Shown here one piece after another: positions 42,270 to 48,310 of a DNA stretch of 64,000 bases (positions are counted from its first letter, which is position 1; each line of letters begins with the position of its first letter). The stretch is from Metabacillus dongyingensis. Lineage in GTDB: Bacteria; Bacillota; Bacilli; Bacillales; Bacillaceae. The DNA is taken from positions 2,296,001 to 2,360,000 of the forward strand of contig NZ_CP082944.1 of the NCBI RefSeq assembly GCF_019933155.2, written 5' to 3'. The notes beneath the pieces are model-generated. The model ran no database searches, was not told where the DNA came from, and was given only the letters and a program-made list of their open reading frames with translations. Made by a program: the position numbers and the translations under genes.

Positions 42270-42369
42270 GAGGATCAAAATTAGCTCGACAAATGGTGTC
42301 GATTACAGCACAAGGTAATAGTCCTTTTGGATAGACTTGAGCAACATTTTGAAAATAGGGGGACAAAGA

Positions 42370-43047
42370 TTGTATAAAGACTATGAACTTATGGAAATAC
42401 AGACAGAAGTCTTATTTAAAATTGATCATTTAAAGAGAATAACAGAAATAAATGAGTCAACCGATTTAATAGCACCTTTCTTCTTTTTGGGTCGTACAAA
42501 AGAAGGCAACGTCATTCGGTTCAACAAAACTTTTCCGGATCATCATAAAATAAAGATATTTGAAGTAGTAAATAACAATCAAAATAACATAGAGCTTGGG
42601 AACTTAATTATGAATGTAAGTAAGTTAAAACAGATAAATAAGATATGGATGGGTCCTGCCTATGTTTTCCCTGAAAATTTTAATATGACTTCAAATGCAA
42701 TTAAAATAACGAACGATAATAAAGAGTTATTGCGAATGGGATTCCCAAATCTTATTCAGCATTTTGAAAAGAGACAGCCCGTTTATGCCATTATTCAGAA
42801 CGGAATAGCAGTTTCTGTCTGCTGCAGTGCAAGAAAGAGTTCAAGAGGTGCTGAGGCAAGCGTAGAAACTTTGGATTCTTATCAAGGTTGTGGATATGGG
42901 ACAAGTAGTGTAATTGCCTGGGCAAACGAAATTAGAAAAGCAGCTTTATATCCACTTTATAGTACAGCTTGGGATAACTTCTCTTCGCAAACTATTGCGA
43001 AGAAATTAAACCTATACAAGTATGGGGTAGATCTGCACATAAGTTAG
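42370..43047 (+). CDS. GNAT-family acetyltransferase (FR47-like)
   Basis: A 225-residue protein whose C-terminal half is an FR47-type acetyltransferase: GIAVSVCCSARKSSRGAEAS, ETLDSYQGCGYGTSSVIAWA (acetyl-CoA loop) and PLYSTAWDNFSSQTIAKKL, ending YKYGVDLHIS. TTG 42370 is preferred as AGGGGGA lies six bases before it. Acceptor unknown. Confidence 0.8.
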   Translation: MYKDYELMEIQTEVLFKIDHLKRITEINESTDLIAPFFFLGRTKEGNVIRFNKTFPDHHKIKIFEVVNNNQNNIELGNLIMNVSKLKQINKIWMGPAYVFPENFNMTSNAIKITNDNKELLRMGFPNLIQHFEKRQPVYAIIQNGIAVSVCCSARKSSRGAEASVETLDSYQGCGYGTSSVIAWANEIRKAALYPLYSTAWDNFSSQTIAKKLNLYKYGVDLHIS

Positions 43048-43437
43048 TTTCCTTGTTCAATATTAGGGGCTTATGCTTCAAAAGGGAAACCAAAGATAAA
43101 AGAAATTAGTAGAACTCATCAAAAAAGAAGACCTTGCTCATATGAGTTAAGGTTGAGAAGAGCAGCTGTTTCACTCAACTAAATCATAAGGTTTGGTAAA
43201 GCTGAAGCTGATTTATACATCAAAAAGAAATAATTATTTATCATTTAAGAGTAAATAATACCCAATAATGAAAAGATTCAAAATTATTATCTGGTTAAAT
43301 GGAATAGTTTTCTGTAGGTAATTATCCTTAAAATGGTAATAATGGATAGATAAATATTTCCAATTTTAGTAGAGTGTAGAAGTACCCTCTTGCAAATAAA
43401 GGTACATATATTTTATGAAGAGAAGGGAGGTAATCTT
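43048..43437. other. Region before the peptide cluster
   Basis: About 390 AT-rich bases, with a degenerate repeat start (TCAATATTAGGGGCTTATG, 43058-43076). It should hold the promoter of the precursor gene, but I see no box strong enough to call. GGGAGG at 43425-43430 is the precursor ribosome site. Confidence 0.45.
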
Positions 43438-43665
43438 TTGGAACTTACAAGCTATGCATCTCCTAAAATGGAGATGGACAATACGCAAACGGTTGAAGAT
43501 CTAGTAGCATTCTTTATTGTAGCTGGTTATGTATTATTAGCGCTTGGAGCCACACTGATTCTAGGTGCAATTGCATGGTGCTTTATGTACGCGCGCAGCA
43601 GCTTCGAAGGAACGCTTGAGCAAGTAGAAGGCGGAGGCTGGAAATTCAGAATAGGATGTAAATAG
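43438..43665 (+). CDS. Putative bacteriocin/RiPP precursor peptide with two cysteines
   Basis: 75 residues from TTG 43438 (GGGAGG eight bases upstream). The N-terminal 24 residues are polar (leader-like: SYASPKMEMDNTQTVEDL). Residues about 25-51 are one long hydrophobic helix (FFIVAGYVLLALGATLILGA then AWCFMY) with small-residue GxxxG-like spacing. The tail is ARSSFEGTLEQVEGGGWKF followed by RIGCK. Cys48 and Cys74 are the only cysteines. Directly ahead of an ABC exporter, an M50 protease with a PqqD domain and a disulfide-forming pair, it is the natural substrate. No known bacteriocin family is recognised. Confidence 0.68.
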   Translation: MELTSYASPKMEMDNTQTVEDLVAFFIVAGYVLLALGATLILGAIAWCFMYARSSFEGTLEQVEGGGWKFRIGCK

Positions 43666-43674
43666 TTGCAAAAA

Positions 43675-43730
43675 GGGGGGAGACAAATCAACAATTCGAC
43701 CTGGTGTTTTGTCACCCTCTCTTTACACCT
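43675..43730 (+). terminator. Possible attenuator between precursor and exporter genes
   Basis: GGAGACAAA pairs with TTTGTCACC (one mismatch) across a 19-base loop, then CTCTCTTT. A leaky terminator here would make more precursor than transporter mRNA. Weak. Confidence 0.4.
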
Positions 43731-43816
43731 TTATCAATTACTAACATCTTATTTACAATTTAGAGTTATATTATAACAATTTTATTAAATAAAATCCAGT
43801 AAAGAGGTTGAAAAGA

Positions 43817-44572
43817 GTGATAGACATCTTAAAGGTAGACAATATTTCCAAAGTTTACAATAAAAAGGTTATAGCTGTTGATCAGGTATCTTTTCAGGTG
43901 AAAACTGGTGAAATTTATGGATTAATTGGTCCAAATGGTTCAGGAAAAACGACTACAATAAATATGATAACCAATTTTTCTAAGGCGGATACCGGTGAAA
44001 TAACAATAAATGGATTAAAAGGTTCTTCTTTAGCCGCAAGAAGCCAATTTGGTTATGTTCCAGACGAATTATTAATTCCAGAAACATTAACAGGATTTGA
44101 ATACTTGTCCTTTATGATGAAGATGTATGAAGTTGATGATGATTATGCAATGAAAGAATTGGTGAAGATATTCAGAATTGAAGATGCAATGCACTCATTG
44201 ATAGGGGGATATTCTCATGGAATGAAGAAAAAACTGCAATTTATAGCAGCTATTCTTCATCAGCCTAAGCTGCTGATTCTAGATGAACCTTTTAGGGGAT
44301 TAGATCCTGAGGCAGTGATTATCTTTAAAAAGCTTTTGGGGCATTACAGGGCGAAGAATACAGCTATTCTTATTGCCACACATGATCTGCTTTCTGCTCA
44401 ATCTCTGTGTGATAAGGTTGGAATTATCTCAAAAGCCGAACTGGTGGAAGATGGGAAAATTAAGGATTTATTACGCAAGTATTCAATGAATCAACTTGAA
44501 GATGTATTCATGGCAGCTTCAGGTTTATCAGAAAGAGGAATCGAAATTGATAAAGTCATTGGAAATCTCTAA
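43817..44572 (+). CDS. ABC transporter ATPase of the peptide cluster
   Basis: A 251-residue ATPase: IGPNGSGKTTTINMI (Walker A), GYSHGMKKKLQF (signature in the place of LSGGQ), LLILDEPFRGLDPEA (Walker B), ATHD switch His. The subtype matches exporters such as B. subtilis YydI or SkfE. GTG 43817 is chosen because AAAGAGG is eight bases upstream; TTG 43808 would touch it. Overlaps the permease start by 26 bases. Confidence 0.88.
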   Translation: MIDILKVDNISKVYNKKVIAVDQVSFQVKTGEIYGLIGPNGSGKTTTINMITNFSKADTGEITINGLKGSSLAARSQFGYVPDELLIPETLTGFEYLSFMMKMYEVDDDYAMKELVKIFRIEDAMHSLIGGYSHGMKKKLQFIAAILHQPKLLILDEPFRGLDPEAVIIFKKLLGHYRAKNTAILIATHDLLSAQSLCDKVGIISKAELVEDGKIKDLLRKYSMNQLEDVFMAASGLSERGIEIDKVIGNL

Positions 44573-46028
44573 GATTATCTACCTAACTTGGAAAAATCAT
44601 TATAAACAGCTGATCGTTCAAAATCCTTTCTTGAAGATTATTATTCCAATGACAGCCATTCTATTATTTGCACTTTTACTTTTATTAACAAAACAGGCTT
44701 TATATCCATTTATAGAATCATTTGGATTAACGGATCCAAGGATGATTCCCGTTATTTTTGTTGCCTTATTCATTAATCTATCTTTGCTAACAAGCATTTC
44801 CCTTAATATGCTGCTGCTTATTTCTCCTGAACGTAATAATATTGAACTCAGTATGCTATGGCTGCCTTTAACTGCTTTTCAAAGAAAAGCGGGATACTAC
44901 CTTCCGTTGCTTATCATAGTAACCTTTCTTTTATCCGTTTTTTATGTGCCAATTCTTTTAACTATGACTTTAGCGCTGAAATTTACATTTTTGCAAACAA
45001 TTGTGTTATTTGGCAGCATGTTTTTGCAGATTACCATGATTCTCTTTACAACATTAATTGTTTTTGAAGGTGTGAATTATCTGACAGGCCACTTGCTGAA
45101 TCTTCCATTTAACAGGGCGCTTAGTGTGTCATCAGCAGGGTTTGCCATTTTAGGAATCTTATTTTTGACTCTTGATTTGAATATGTTCCAAAGTTTATAC
45201 GTAAACATGGAGTACAACTTTTTATATCTAATGCTTATAAATCTGACTATTGTTTCAAATCTTTTCGGTGATTTTCAAGCAGGTTATGTGGTCATGGTCC
45301 ATTTATTGGCCCTATTTATCTTTCTAGTGTTTCTCTGCTGTGTACTGTTGCCTTCTTCCTTAAAAGATTCATCTGGGATTGCATTTCTTAAACGTCTTCC
45401 TTTCTCAAAAAACAAGTTTCTCTCATTTGCTGTGAAAGAATTCAAGGAAACCATCAGAAACTCTGAAAATATCTTATATGTTATCGTTTTGTCAACAATT
45501 AGTCTGTTTCTCGCATTCGTCCTGGATCTCAGCAGCTACTATGTTCTTTTGCCCATTCCAATTTGGATCATGAGCAGCTTCTTGAGCTACAGCTCTTATG
45601 GAAGAGAACAAAAGACATTTTTAATGTGGAACGCAATTCCTTATTCTTCGAAAAAATGGATATATGCAAAGCTGATTGCTAATATGTTTCTTTCTATCGG
45701 GCTAGCAACGATCCTGTTTATTGTTTTTAAAATGTCATATCCTTTACCTATACTTGAGTTTTATAAATATTTGCCGATCGGCATATTGGTTACGACTGCG
45801 GCTTATATGATTGGTGTCATTTTTCCCTACTCACCAAAACATCCTTATTCTACAGCATTTACCGCAGTAGGTGGAAGTCTGATTGCATTGCCTGCATTCC
45901 TGCTTATTTATAAGGGACTCGAATACGTCCCCCAATCAATTTATCAATATATCATTCTTTTTCTAATTGCAGTCTTTAGTTTATCTTTATATGTTATTGA
46001 TGGGTGGAAGAGAAAATATGCTGACTAA
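44547..46028 (+). CDS. ABC transporter permease of the peptide cluster
   Basis: A 493-residue integral membrane protein with about ten to twelve hydrophobic helices and no soluble domain, starting SLEISKIIYLTWKNHYKQLI. TTG 44547 follows AGAGGAA inside the end of the ATPase gene. It overlaps the next gene by 11 bases. Together with the ATPase it would export the mature peptide or give self-immunity, as SkfEF and YydIJ do. Confidence 0.82.
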   Translation: MIKSLEISKIIYLTWKNHYKQLIVQNPFLKIIIPMTAILLFALLLLLTKQALYPFIESFGLTDPRMIPVIFVALFINLSLLTSISLNMLLLISPERNNIELSMLWLPLTAFQRKAGYYLPLLIIVTFLLSVFYVPILLTMTLALKFTFLQTIVLFGSMFLQITMILFTTLIVFEGVNYLTGHLLNLPFNRALSVSSAGFAILGILFLTLDLNMFQSLYVNMEYNFLYLMLINLTIVSNLFGDFQAGYVVMVHLLALFIFLVFLCCVLLPSSLKDSSGIAFLKRLPFSKNKFLSFAVKEFKETIRNSENILYVIVLSTISLFLAFVLDLSSYYVLLPIPIWIMSSFLSYSSYGREQKTFLMWNAIPYSSKKWIYAKLIANMFLSIGLATILFIVFKMSYPLPILEFYKYLPIGILVTTAAYMIGVIFPYSPKHPYSTAFTAVGGSLIALPAFLLIYKGLEYVPQSIYQYIILFLIAVFSLSLYVIDGWKRKYAD

Positions 46029-46920
46029 TAAAAGCATTCCAGCGTTTCCTGTTGATGTCGTGCTAAAGGAGAATTGTATTGAAGATTTAGGTTTGGAGAA
46101 ACAGCATAAAATTGACCGTATGGCTTTTTATATGCTCTCCAAGATAGATGGCAAGAAGACAATTGAGGATCTGATTGAGGAAATTCATGATCATTTTTCT
46201 GATGTAAAGAAAAAACAAATTGAAAAAGACTTGATGAATGTGTTCAGCCTGCTCGAACAGCATCATCTTATAAATTTTTCCAATAAACTGCAAGATACAC
46301 TTTTGTCTTACTTTGTGACATTAACAAATCGAAAATATATTCCATCTGCTAAACGATATAACATCCAAACCCTTTCATTTCCTGCAATGGTTTTGTTTGT
46401 TTTAGTAAGGTGTGCAGCTCAGCTCCTCCCTCTTATGGTAATAGTTACGCTGTTAAGCTCCATTCCATTTATAGTAAGCAAAGAAGCTGAAGCGATGACT
46501 GTGATTTTTTATAGCCTTTGCATATTTTTTGCTATCGCGGTAAGCATCAGTATCCATGAAACCTCACATCTTTACTTTTTGAGGCGCAGCCTGCAAAAAA
46601 ATTCAATTGGCTTTTTAAAGATTGGATTTATGAGTTTTAAGATCATTCGTCCTGCGGTAAATGAACAGCTTATTGTGGCCGTCAGCGGACCAATGATAAC
46701 CGGAGGTTTCGGAATAGCTGGGGCCTGGGCATGTTTGATGATTTCTGATCCGTTTTTCCATTTAGTGGGTTTGGTTTGTTCTGGCATTTTTTTGCTTCAT
46801 TTGTTAAATTTGCTGCCTTTCTTTAATGACGGAAGTAAATTGTATAATGAAATTTTTGATCAGCATAACAAAAGTACATCGCCTCCTTCTAAACTCAGAA
46901 AAAAACGCTACTCATTTTAG
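46018..46920 (+). CDS. PqqD-like recognition domain fused to an M50 membrane metalloprotease
   Basis: 300 residues from ATG 46018. Residues 10-90 look like a PqqD-type RiPP recognition element (DVVLKENCIEDL, FYMLSKIDGKKTIEDLIEEI, FSLLEQHHLI). The rest is membrane-embedded with HETSH (180-184), the zinc HExxH of site-2 proteases, and NLLPFFNDG (264-272), the N-x-x-P-x-x-x-x-D-G motif. It should bind the precursor through its N-terminus and cut it in or near the membrane, as B. subtilis YydH/EpeP does for EpeX. All catalytic residues are present. Confidence 0.85.
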   Translation: MLTNKSIPAFPVDVVLKENCIEDLGLEKQHKIDRMAFYMLSKIDGKKTIEDLIEEIHDHFSDVKKKQIEKDLMNVFSLLEQHHLINFSNKLQDTLLSYFVTLTNRKYIPSAKRYNIQTLSFPAMVLFVLVRCAAQLLPLMVIVTLLSSIPFIVSKEAEAMTVIFYSLCIFFAIAVSISIHETSHLYFLRRSLQKNSIGFLKIGFMSFKIIRPAVNEQLIVAVSGPMITGGFGIAGAWACLMISDPFFHLVGLVCSGIFLLHLLNLLPFFNDGSKLYNEIFDQHNKSTSPPSKLRKKRYSF

Positions 46921-46943
46921 TTATACGAAACGGGGAAATAGAT

Positions 46944-47225
46944 ATGAAGATGTATACGAAAGTTTTATTTTCAGCTGTAATAGTTTCACTCATACTAATG
47001 GCTATTTTCTTTACAGTTATTACGCTATATTCTCTTTTTACATTTCAATCATTCAGTCTAGGTGATTTCTATAAATTAGAAATTACTAAAGAGCCTGCAA
47101 GCTTTAATTTGGAAGCCTCAGAGGGAATGATATACCTGTTTGGAATCACAACCTTGTTTTTCATCATCCTGTTTTCTATCTCCCAAATGATTAAATCGAG
47201 AATGGCTAATGCAAATGAAAAATAG
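46944..47225 (+). CDS. Two-helix membrane protein of the peptide cluster
   Basis: 93 residues with an N-terminal helix (VLFSAVIVSLILMAIFF), an extracytoplasmic loop of about 35 residues and a C-terminal helix (YLFGITTLFFIILFSI) ending in a basic tail. ACGGGGAAATAG before the ATG. Overlaps the oxidoreductase by 17 bases. Could be the immunity protein or a transporter accessory; family unknown. Confidence 0.7.
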   Translation: MKMYTKVLFSAVIVSLILMAIFFTVITLYSLFTFQSFSLGDFYKLEITKEPASFNLEASEGMIYLFGITTLFFIILFSISQMIKSRMANANEK

Positions 47226-47829
47226 AAAGATAATAGCATGTCTGGTAATCATTACAATTCTCTTGTTTATAGCAGGAGTTGGCAACCTATTAATGTCTTC
47301 AAATTCTTCGGTAGCTTCAACTAAAATAAGTAGTGAAGAATTAATTGAAAATGGGTATGCTTTCGGTGACTCGGATGCCCCAATAACATTGATAGAATAT
47401 ACAAATTTTCAATGTACATACTGCAAAGAGCAGCATTCAGAACTTAATGAGGAAGTGGAAAGACTAATTAACGATGGAAAGCTCTACTATCTGATGAAGC
47501 ATGTATCTATTGAAGCTTATAAAAATGCTGAAATTGTAAATGAAAGAGTCAATGCTATTTCAGATAAGGACAGCCAGCTCAGTGTAATAAATAGGGTGTT
47601 TAAAGAACAGGAACAATGGAGTGAAAAAAATGCAGGTGAACTTGAAAGGTATTTTGAGAACGCAAATCTCCAAGAAAAGAATCCTGTCAAGATTAAAGGG
47701 AAATTGGAATCTGAAGTGAAAAAACTCGGAATTACATCAACTCCGACAACTATTATTAATGGACAAAAGTTTCAAGGGACATTAAAAAAAGAGGAGTTTC
47801 TCAAGTACATTGAAACAGAATTGGAATAA
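47209..47829 (+). CDS. DsbA-like membrane-anchored thiol-disulfide oxidoreductase
   Basis: 206 residues. N-terminal anchor (IIACLVIITILLFIAGVG), then a thioredoxin fold with DAPITLIEYTNFQCTYCKEQ (CxxC at 69-72) and the cis-proline loop TSTPTTI. This is the BdbD/DsbA layout that oxidises exported substrates. The VKOR-like partner overlaps its end. In this operon the obvious substrate is the two-cysteine peptide. Confidence 0.88.
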   Translation: MQMKNRKIIACLVIITILLFIAGVGNLLMSSNSSVASTKISSEELIENGYAFGDSDAPITLIEYTNFQCTYCKEQHSELNEEVERLINDGKLYYLMKHVSIEAYKNAEIVNERVNAISDKDSQLSVINRVFKEQEQWSEKNAGELERYFENANLQEKNPVKIKGKLESEVKKLGITSTPTTIINGQKFQGTLKKEEFLKYIETELE

Positions 47830-48271
47830 TCTTAAAGGTTTGTTTCTCTTATTTCTAGTTATCGGGTTTTGTGTTAGTACATATCTTTATCTTAGCAGTT
47901 TACTGAATGTCCCAATTGCCTGTCCTATAATTGATAGCACCAGCTGCATGAAAGTGAATGAAAGTCCTTATAGCAGGTTTCATGGAATGCCTGTATCGCT
48001 TCTGGGGATAATTGGCTATTCCATGCTATTAATAAATTTACCTTTGATTGATAAACGATGGGGGTTTTTATCCTTCTGCCTAATGATAATGAGTGCATTA
48101 GCATTTAGCGTGTACCTTATGACTGTCAGTATTTTTGTAATCAAAGCGCTCTGTATATGGTGTGCTGTTTCTGCTGGGATCATTTGTATAATTGCTGGAT
48201 TATGCATATGGAATATCTTGAGCTGTTGGGCTGACTATTTTCCATTACTCAAACATACGGATGATGCATAA
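47810..48271 (+). CDS. Vitamin K epoxide reductase family (VKOR) disulfide generator
   Basis: 153 residues, four to five helices. CPIIDSTSCMKVNESPYSRF (C38, C46) is the luminal loop pair with the conserved serine and Tyr-Ser; GMPVSLLGIIGY follows; CIWC (115-118) is the quinone-side active site. It would reoxidise the DsbA-like protein with quinone. TTG 47810 overlaps the previous gene by 20 bases. Last gene of the cluster; a terminator follows. Confidence 0.88.
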   Translation: MKQNWNNLKGLFLLFLVIGFCVSTYLYLSSLLNVPIACPIIDSTSCMKVNESPYSRFHGMPVSLLGIIGYSMLLINLPLIDKRWGFLSFCLMIMSALAFSVYLMTVSIFVIKALCIWCAVSAGIICIIAGLCIWNILSCWADYFPLLKHTDDA

Positions 48272-48282
48272 AACGTTCATGT

Positions 48283-48310
48283 AGCCACAGTCCATGTCAC
48301 TGTGGTTTTT
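48283..48310 (+). terminator. Terminator of the peptide cluster
   Basis: CCACAGT/ACTGTGG stem, seven-base loop, TTTTT. Confidence 0.85.

Follow-up and report, generated by a model that had tools for sequence, protein, structure and literature searches.

A stretch of 64,000 nucleotides of the Metabacillus dongyingensis genome (NCBI RefSeq assembly GCF_019933155.2, contig NZ_CP082944.1, positions 2,296,001 to 2,360,000; hereafter the window) carries at positions 43438-48271 seven packed genes that, by peptide anatomy and gene set, almost certainly form an operon of the TMcins, a class of antibacterial peptides published in 2025-26 (PMC12328743, accessible in part; PMC13252029), with a correspondingly predicted activity. 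Very probably, the leader of its precursor TmcA is removed by the membrane protease TmcP under the guidance of a recognition element (RRE) typical of ribosomally synthesized and post-translationally modified peptides (RiPPs), and a disulfide is then formed through a relay between the DsbA-like TmcD and VKOR. Relative to the TMcin main texts, the RRE on TmcP with a matching leader motif and the disulfide gene pair inside the operon both look new. The terms "pqqd", "rre" and "vkor" are absent from both main texts (PMC12328743, PMC13252029). A literature search, whose coverage left out most subscription papers, returned nothing joining RREs to TMcins and nothing on PqqD with M50, bacteriocin and disulfide, on VKOR with bacteriocin, or on RRE-Finder with M50.

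Gene content and likeness to TMcins

The preliminary description of these genes had proposed a ribosomal peptide system combining a two-cysteine precursor, an RRE on an intramembrane protease, an ABC exporter and a DsbA/VKOR pair for one disulfide, a reading that is supported here. All seven forward-strand frames are open at or near the coordinates it had proposed, and five of the six junctions indeed overlap or are shorter than 25 bases (142 nt between tmcA and tmcB, then -23, -11, +23, -17 and -20 in gene order; with TTG 44547 as the start of tmcC, the tmcB-tmcC overlap becomes 26). The start of tmcB is probably GTG 43817 and that of tmcC TTG 44547. The closing terminator that had been called corresponds to a terminator-like hairpin, and the calls of ATPase, PqqD-protease fusion, DsbA-like protein and VKOR agree with matches to ABC_tran, PqqD, Thioredoxin_4 and VKOR. 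The dispersed repeats said to bound the cluster were not recovered: no further copy of the upstream gap (43048-43437) turned up in the genome at E 0.001, and the downstream gap gave only short genome matches of ~30-57 bases.

43438..43665, +, tmcA, 75-aa TMcin precursor, TTG start
43453..43470, +, leader motif Y6-A-S-P9-K-M11, predicted RRE docking site
43817..44572, +, tmcB, ABC ATPase (open frame from TTG 43808; ABC_tran 4.8e-27)
44547..46028, +, tmcC, permease, by identity to the same-place gene in relatives
46018..46920, +, tmcP, PqqD-type RRE fused to a site-2 (M50-like) protease; PqqD above cut-off
46018..46287, +, RRE domain of tmcP, residues 1-90
46555..46569, +, HExxH zinc motif of tmcP (H180 E181 H184)
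46944..47225, +, tmcE, two-helix escort protein, by profile match and identity to L087
47209..47829, +, tmcD, DsbA-like thiol oxidase, CTYC (Thioredoxin_4 3.7e-22)
47810..48271, +, VKOR, predicted re-oxidant of TmcD (VKOR 2.3e-20)
48283..48307, +, intrinsic-terminator-like hairpin with T-run, end of the operon

Both the tmcB/tmcC ABC exporter and the two-helix escort TmcE of a TMcin are present in the operon. TmcB shares 35-46% identity with the product of the same-place gene in 18 relatives and 57% with that of L087, the nearest relative. TmcC, whose published counterpart has 12 helices, gave zero Pfam or NCBIfam matches and shares 21-27% identity with its counterparts in relatives and 42% with that of L087. 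Family searches leave TmcE unclassified; it has two hydrophobic stretches, resembles the published TmcE in combining two helices with an outer segment, matches the tmcE profile at 4e-27 (its own sequence being among the profile seeds) and is 42% identical to its counterpart in L087.

The TTG start of tmcA at 43438 agrees with an upstream GGGAGG and with the aligned precursors of relatives, and the frame is more than a chance one because homologues adjoin homologous genes in other genomes. Its predicted parts are a leader (residues 1-23), a mature peptide (24-75) and a disulfide Cys48-Cys74, or C25-C51 in mature numbering. The mature start at A24 was deduced from the published C25 numbering and from the alignment with AWF of Bacillus, and it would make the first cysteine residue 25, as in TMcin-G1905. 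As expected of a TMcin precursor, the peptide combines one transmembrane helix, a two-stranded beta segment and two conserved cysteines, and its AlphaFold2 model (helix 15-51, strands 56-63 and 67-74; mean pLDDT 70.7, pTM 0.39) predicts a structure matching the published TMcin fold. Over thirteen divergent cores, nothing is invariant except the two cysteines and one Phe.

In the published core operon, tmcB, tmcC, tmcE and tmcP are followed by tmcA and tmcD lies apart, and work on G1905, including mutants, established that TmcP removes the leader, that TmcE is needed for cleavage, that TmcBC exports the peptide and that TmcD forms a disulfide needed for killing (PMC13252029). The accessible part of PMC12328743 reports that purified TMcin kills Gram-positive bacteria and forms pores, and names three gene arrangements and a chromosomal cluster on NC_006270.3; the arrangement of our Bacillus loci is probably among those of its Figure 3. 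Shared between the window's system and the TMcins (TMcin-G1905) are a transmembrane-helix precursor with two conserved cysteines and a beta hairpin, an ABC exporter, a site-2 protease with distal Asp/Pro, a two-helix escort, a DsbA-like oxidase and an occurrence in Bacillota and Actinomycetota. The window differs by the N-terminal RRE of its TmcP, by a leader predicted at 23 aa (vs 45) with YxxPxM, by having tmcA first rather than last, and by DsbA in the core operon, plus VKOR. By analogy with G1905, its product may be antimicrobial and act through disulfide-dependent pore formation. In the literature, TMcins are described as not homologous to any known bacteriocin cluster or leader and as overlooked by genome mining. 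Since gene set and peptide anatomy are the same, the earlier claim that no described system has this set falls, the cluster being already described under the name TMcin.

The RRE of TmcP and the leader motif

Pfam, profile and fold comparisons all point to a PqqD-type RRE domain in TmcP, as found in RRE-dependent RiPPs. The Pfam match to PqqD (E 8.9e-7, 29.6 bits) exceeds its cut-off of 23.4, and profile comparison matched PqqD (5sxy, 1e-8), TbiB1 (9.3e-4) and MjS2P (3b4r, 1.2e-3). Residues ~5-90 model as an RRE, as the preliminary description had anticipated, and the best Foldseek matches of the domain are lasso B1 proteins bound to leaders. TmcP also carries the HExxH and distal Asp/Pro of a site-2 protease: 12 aligned proteins, the window's included, all keep HExxH and a distal LLPFxxDG, and HExxH with distal P267, D271 and G272 is invariant in alignments A2 and A4. 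When ten proteases were submitted to Pfam, all five of the RRE type matched PqqD (three exceeding the cut-off and two falling just short of it) and all five RRE-less ones matched DUF3267 (three above, two below).

The window and 64 loci (some genomes twice) were annotated with profiles built here, that of the RRE from twelve of the RRE-type proteins; several loci seeded other profiles. After removal of identical copies, 66 rows were reduced to 55 distinct precursor/protease pairs from 53 loci, two of them with two precursors. Left out before the motif count were L064, whose contig stops short of tmcP (the motif is present in its leader), L091, without a TmcA match, and L092, without TmcA or TmcP. 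Each leader was taken to begin at the furthest upstream start codon. Because most queries derived from RRE-type members, the share of this type in the class is likely overstated.

The motif [YF]xxPx[AVILMF] was found in the leader of 44/44 pairs with an RRE (43 with Tyr, one with Phe) and of 0/11 pairs without, and in 5.5% of shuffled RRE-type leaders. It starts 41-42 residues ahead of the core's first Cys in 36 pairs and 37-38 residues ahead of it in the other eight, which are of the short-helix type. Docking of YxxP and a Leu by a B1 RRE has been described (PMC6784204). Trees were drawn for TmcB (37 pairs, 28 with and 9 without RRE) and TmcC (34 pairs, 28 and 6) after removal of near-copies of Bacillus. 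On the TmcB tree, two changes of the RRE label are required, and placing all RRE-less members in one clade is rejected (approximately unbiased test, p-AU 0.002). RRE and motif thus appear, by the TmcB tree, to have changed together at least twice; the TmcC tree does not settle this, and L094, the key row, is long-branched in both trees. As a co-occurrence, and by fold, the partnership of RRE and leader has good support; as a mechanism, we infer it from these sequences.

Alternatively, the cluster could be a TMcin operon whose RRE is a relic or has another role, the motif being kept by descent or for membrane insertion. This would fit the studied G1905, whose TmcP belongs to DUF3267 (PF11667) with no mention of an RRE (PMC13252029), as well as the existence of RRE-less relatives, the close kinship of many RRE-type rows and a TmcC tree that does not prove two separate changes. 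It nevertheless appears unlikely, as the motif accompanies every RRE-type protease counted, including those whose precursors have quite different helices, and none of the others, including that of the Actinoplanes locus L068 with its core 73% identical to an RRE-type core of Bacillus, while the spacing from motif to Cys is near-fixed and the fold is near that of leader-bound B1 proteins.

At L091:8061-11827 (-), an RRE-type protease, an ABC pair and a 90-aa membrane-type protein are preceded by two 69-aa frames, which carry YVKPLI and YTKPSI in their leaders, two cysteines each and a shorter hydrophobic stretch. Unmatched by the TmcA profile, these frames possibly represent another peptide family that uses the same chassis. 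At L092:8870, a PqqD-like frame of 87 aa stands alone behind a 403-aa protein resembling a transporter, and no precursor was recognised.

Disulfide genes and relatives

According to the preprint, tmcD is absent outside staphylococci (PMC13252029). In 9/55 pairs, however, tmcE is succeeded by a same-strand DsbA-like gene, which runs counter to that statement. These are the window, L085 and L087 (from the host's order), two plasmids of Paraclostridium bifermentans (the frame being split in one), P. ghonii, two Romboutsia and one uncultured Peptostreptococcaceae; L121, the tenth row flagged, carries its DsbA on the other strand. No VKOR was detected in any other of the 65 stretches scanned, using a profile from this one protein that could miss distant VKORs, and no VKOR-like frame was found after the DsbA gene of L087. 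The host genome has one VKOR match, namely this gene, and one separate DsbB match elsewhere. Gene position and the role published for TmcD make a DsbA/VKOR relay plausible. Both genes are missing from most RRE-type clusters examined, the host has its own DsbB and VKOR was seen once, so the two proteins might serve general disulfide formation and have been merely carried along; we regard this as decidedly improbable, as DsbA occupies the same place in Clostridia and in the host's order, the reading frames overlap, and disulfide formation in G1905 requires TmcD (PMC13252029).

In the Paraclostridium plasmid copy L029:7454-10700, the permease and DsbA frames are split. A DUF3267 (site-2-type) protein follows the DsbA gene in clostridial RRE-type clusters (L028:10745-11377, L063:12353-12967, L065, L066 and L067), which perhaps have two proteases each.

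The host genome has one tmcP match. Within the host family, 27 of 80 genomes contain a TmcP relative, namely the host, 24 Bacillus (licheniformis and pumilus groups, others too) and two of a third genus, including Metabacillus kandeliae; 0/6 congeners of the host in that sample have one. The replicon NC_006270.3 mentioned above we take to be Bacillus licheniformis. Among the first 18 wider stretches examined (16 from the host family and two Paraclostridium plasmids), 17 have, upstream of the ATPase, a small frame that matches the 75-aa peptide (E 4e-15 to 4e-11, 35-43% identity), with the order peptide, ATPase, permease and TmcP; the upstream peptide of the eighteenth, L043, is more divergent. 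The 43438 frame is thus conserved beside these genes in relatives, a check that had been suggested at the outset. A scan with the precursor alignment added Marininema, Romboutsia, more Paraclostridium and one Actinoplanes, and a precursor scan of the host's class matched 17/398 genomes, host included. At L068:7914-11198 (Actinoplanes philippinensis), the TMcin core is 73% identical to that of Bacillus over 51 residues, although the exporter ATPase shares only ~33% identity with that of the window and the leader shows no relationship; conservation of the core far exceeds that of its processing genes. Gene tmcA is last in the RRE-less loci L093 and L116, as in G1905, and precursor genes are duplicated in tandem at L031:6419-6997, L093:9544-10125 and L117:6405-7042.

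With the precursor of B. paralicheniformis, those of Clostridia and Actinoplanes share 62-73% identity, whereas clostridial TmcP is only 25-27% identical to its B. paralicheniformis counterpart. A core more conserved than its protease, unlike many bacteriocins, would suit a signal or self-acting peptide rather than a weapon. Such a function seems very unlikely, given that structural demands can conserve a pore-forming core rich in packing contacts and that a purified member of the class kills Gram-positive bacteria and forms pores (accessible part of PMC12328743).

Just upstream of the operon, at 42337-43047, a protein resembles the kasugamycin N-acetyltransferase AAC(2')-IIb, with 159 of 390 bits (below the cut-off).

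Related systems and proposed mechanism

Daptides (Mpa system) present, in the accessible part of PMC10036551, an RRE N-terminal on an intramembrane site-2 protease, short hydrophobic precursors and an ABC exporter, as in the window, and their leader motif ELExMEAP is spaced like the ELxxYxAP of clostridial TMcins. Unlike them, the window has neither enzymes forming Dmp nor a C-terminal Thr, and encodes one precursor with two cysteines. The closest known RRE-protease fusion found is that of daptides, not EpeX. Lasso peptide B1 RREs (TbiB1, TfuB1) share the RRE fold and a YxxPxL-type leader motif, whereas the window operon lacks a B2 peptidase or lasso cyclase and has its RRE fused to a membrane metalloprotease. 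The epipeptide system EpeX/YydF also has an M50-family membrane protease and an ABC exporter; its precursor is unrelated to the window peptide, and its radical-SAM epimerase is absent among the seven genes. The earlier proposal of an EpeX-type system with a replaced radical-SAM step is unsupported, the family being TMcin and the nearest fusion that of daptides. That the operon belongs to a separate RiPP class, daptide-like or EpeX-like, otherwise modified and merely resembling TMcins, is hardly credible: daptides were found through an RRE fused to a site-2 protease (accessible part of PMC10036551) and 2/5 RRE-type proteases tested weakly match the NCBIfam daptide protease (16.6 and 23.7 bits vs a cut-off of 300), but the operon has no aminotransferase, dehydrogenase, methyltransferase or radical-SAM gene, the precursor ends in Lys, not Thr, and both gene set and peptide anatomy are those of TMcins.

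In the TMcin mechanism that we propose, TmcA would be placed in the producer membrane, as in the staphylococcal relative, and the PqqD-type RRE on TmcP would bind YxxPx[hydrophobic] of the cytosolic leader, holding the membrane-embedded precursor at the protease. TmcP, helped by TmcE, would then cut near A24 and remove the leader. Outside, TmcD would oxidise Cys48-Cys74 and be re-oxidised by the neighbouring VKOR, and TmcBC would export the peptide. The mature product, one transmembrane helix with a disulfide-pinned beta hairpin, would form beta-barrel pores in other Gram-positive cells. At the scale of the class, we think it fairly likely that there is an RRE branch of TMcins, in which the fused RRE grips a lasso-like leader motif and steers intramembrane proteolysis on an RRE-site-2-protease chassis common to daptides. 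RRE and motif would have been gained or lost jointly at least twice (TmcB tree), RRE-less members would rely on DUF3267 proteases and unrelated leaders, and some clusters of the RRE type would have a DsbA of their own, or in the window a full DsbA/VKOR relay.

Several observations weigh against this interpretation. The literature examined reports neither activity, product mass nor binding for RRE-type members. The 44 RRE-type pairs are not independent, Bacillus dominating among them, and the TmcC tree, drawn with two changes, tolerates a single RRE-less clade (p-AU 0.24). In fold comparison, the Foldseek matches of the RRE are all weaker than E 0.001 and an unrelated methyltransferase domain outscores the B1 proteins by Z. 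The Pfam M50 match of TmcP is sub-threshold (0.011), and the protein, in contrast to that of the published TMcin, has no DUF3267 match at E 1. In the helix-flanking Trp pair, kept in 18 other alignment rows, the window retains the second and has Phe as the first, another difference from TMcins. VKOR is a single case, linked to the operon by its position.

The RRE on TmcP joins part of the TMcin class to RRE-dependent RiPPs. The leader rule YxxPx[hydrophobic], ~41 or 37 residues before the first Cys, can assist in finding members that a core profile misses, of which L091 may be the first case, and the published picture of tmcD as staphylococcal only changes. If true, the mechanism would exemplify RRE-guided proteolysis within a membrane, and the selection of a membrane-embedded precursor by a site-2 protease becomes directly testable.

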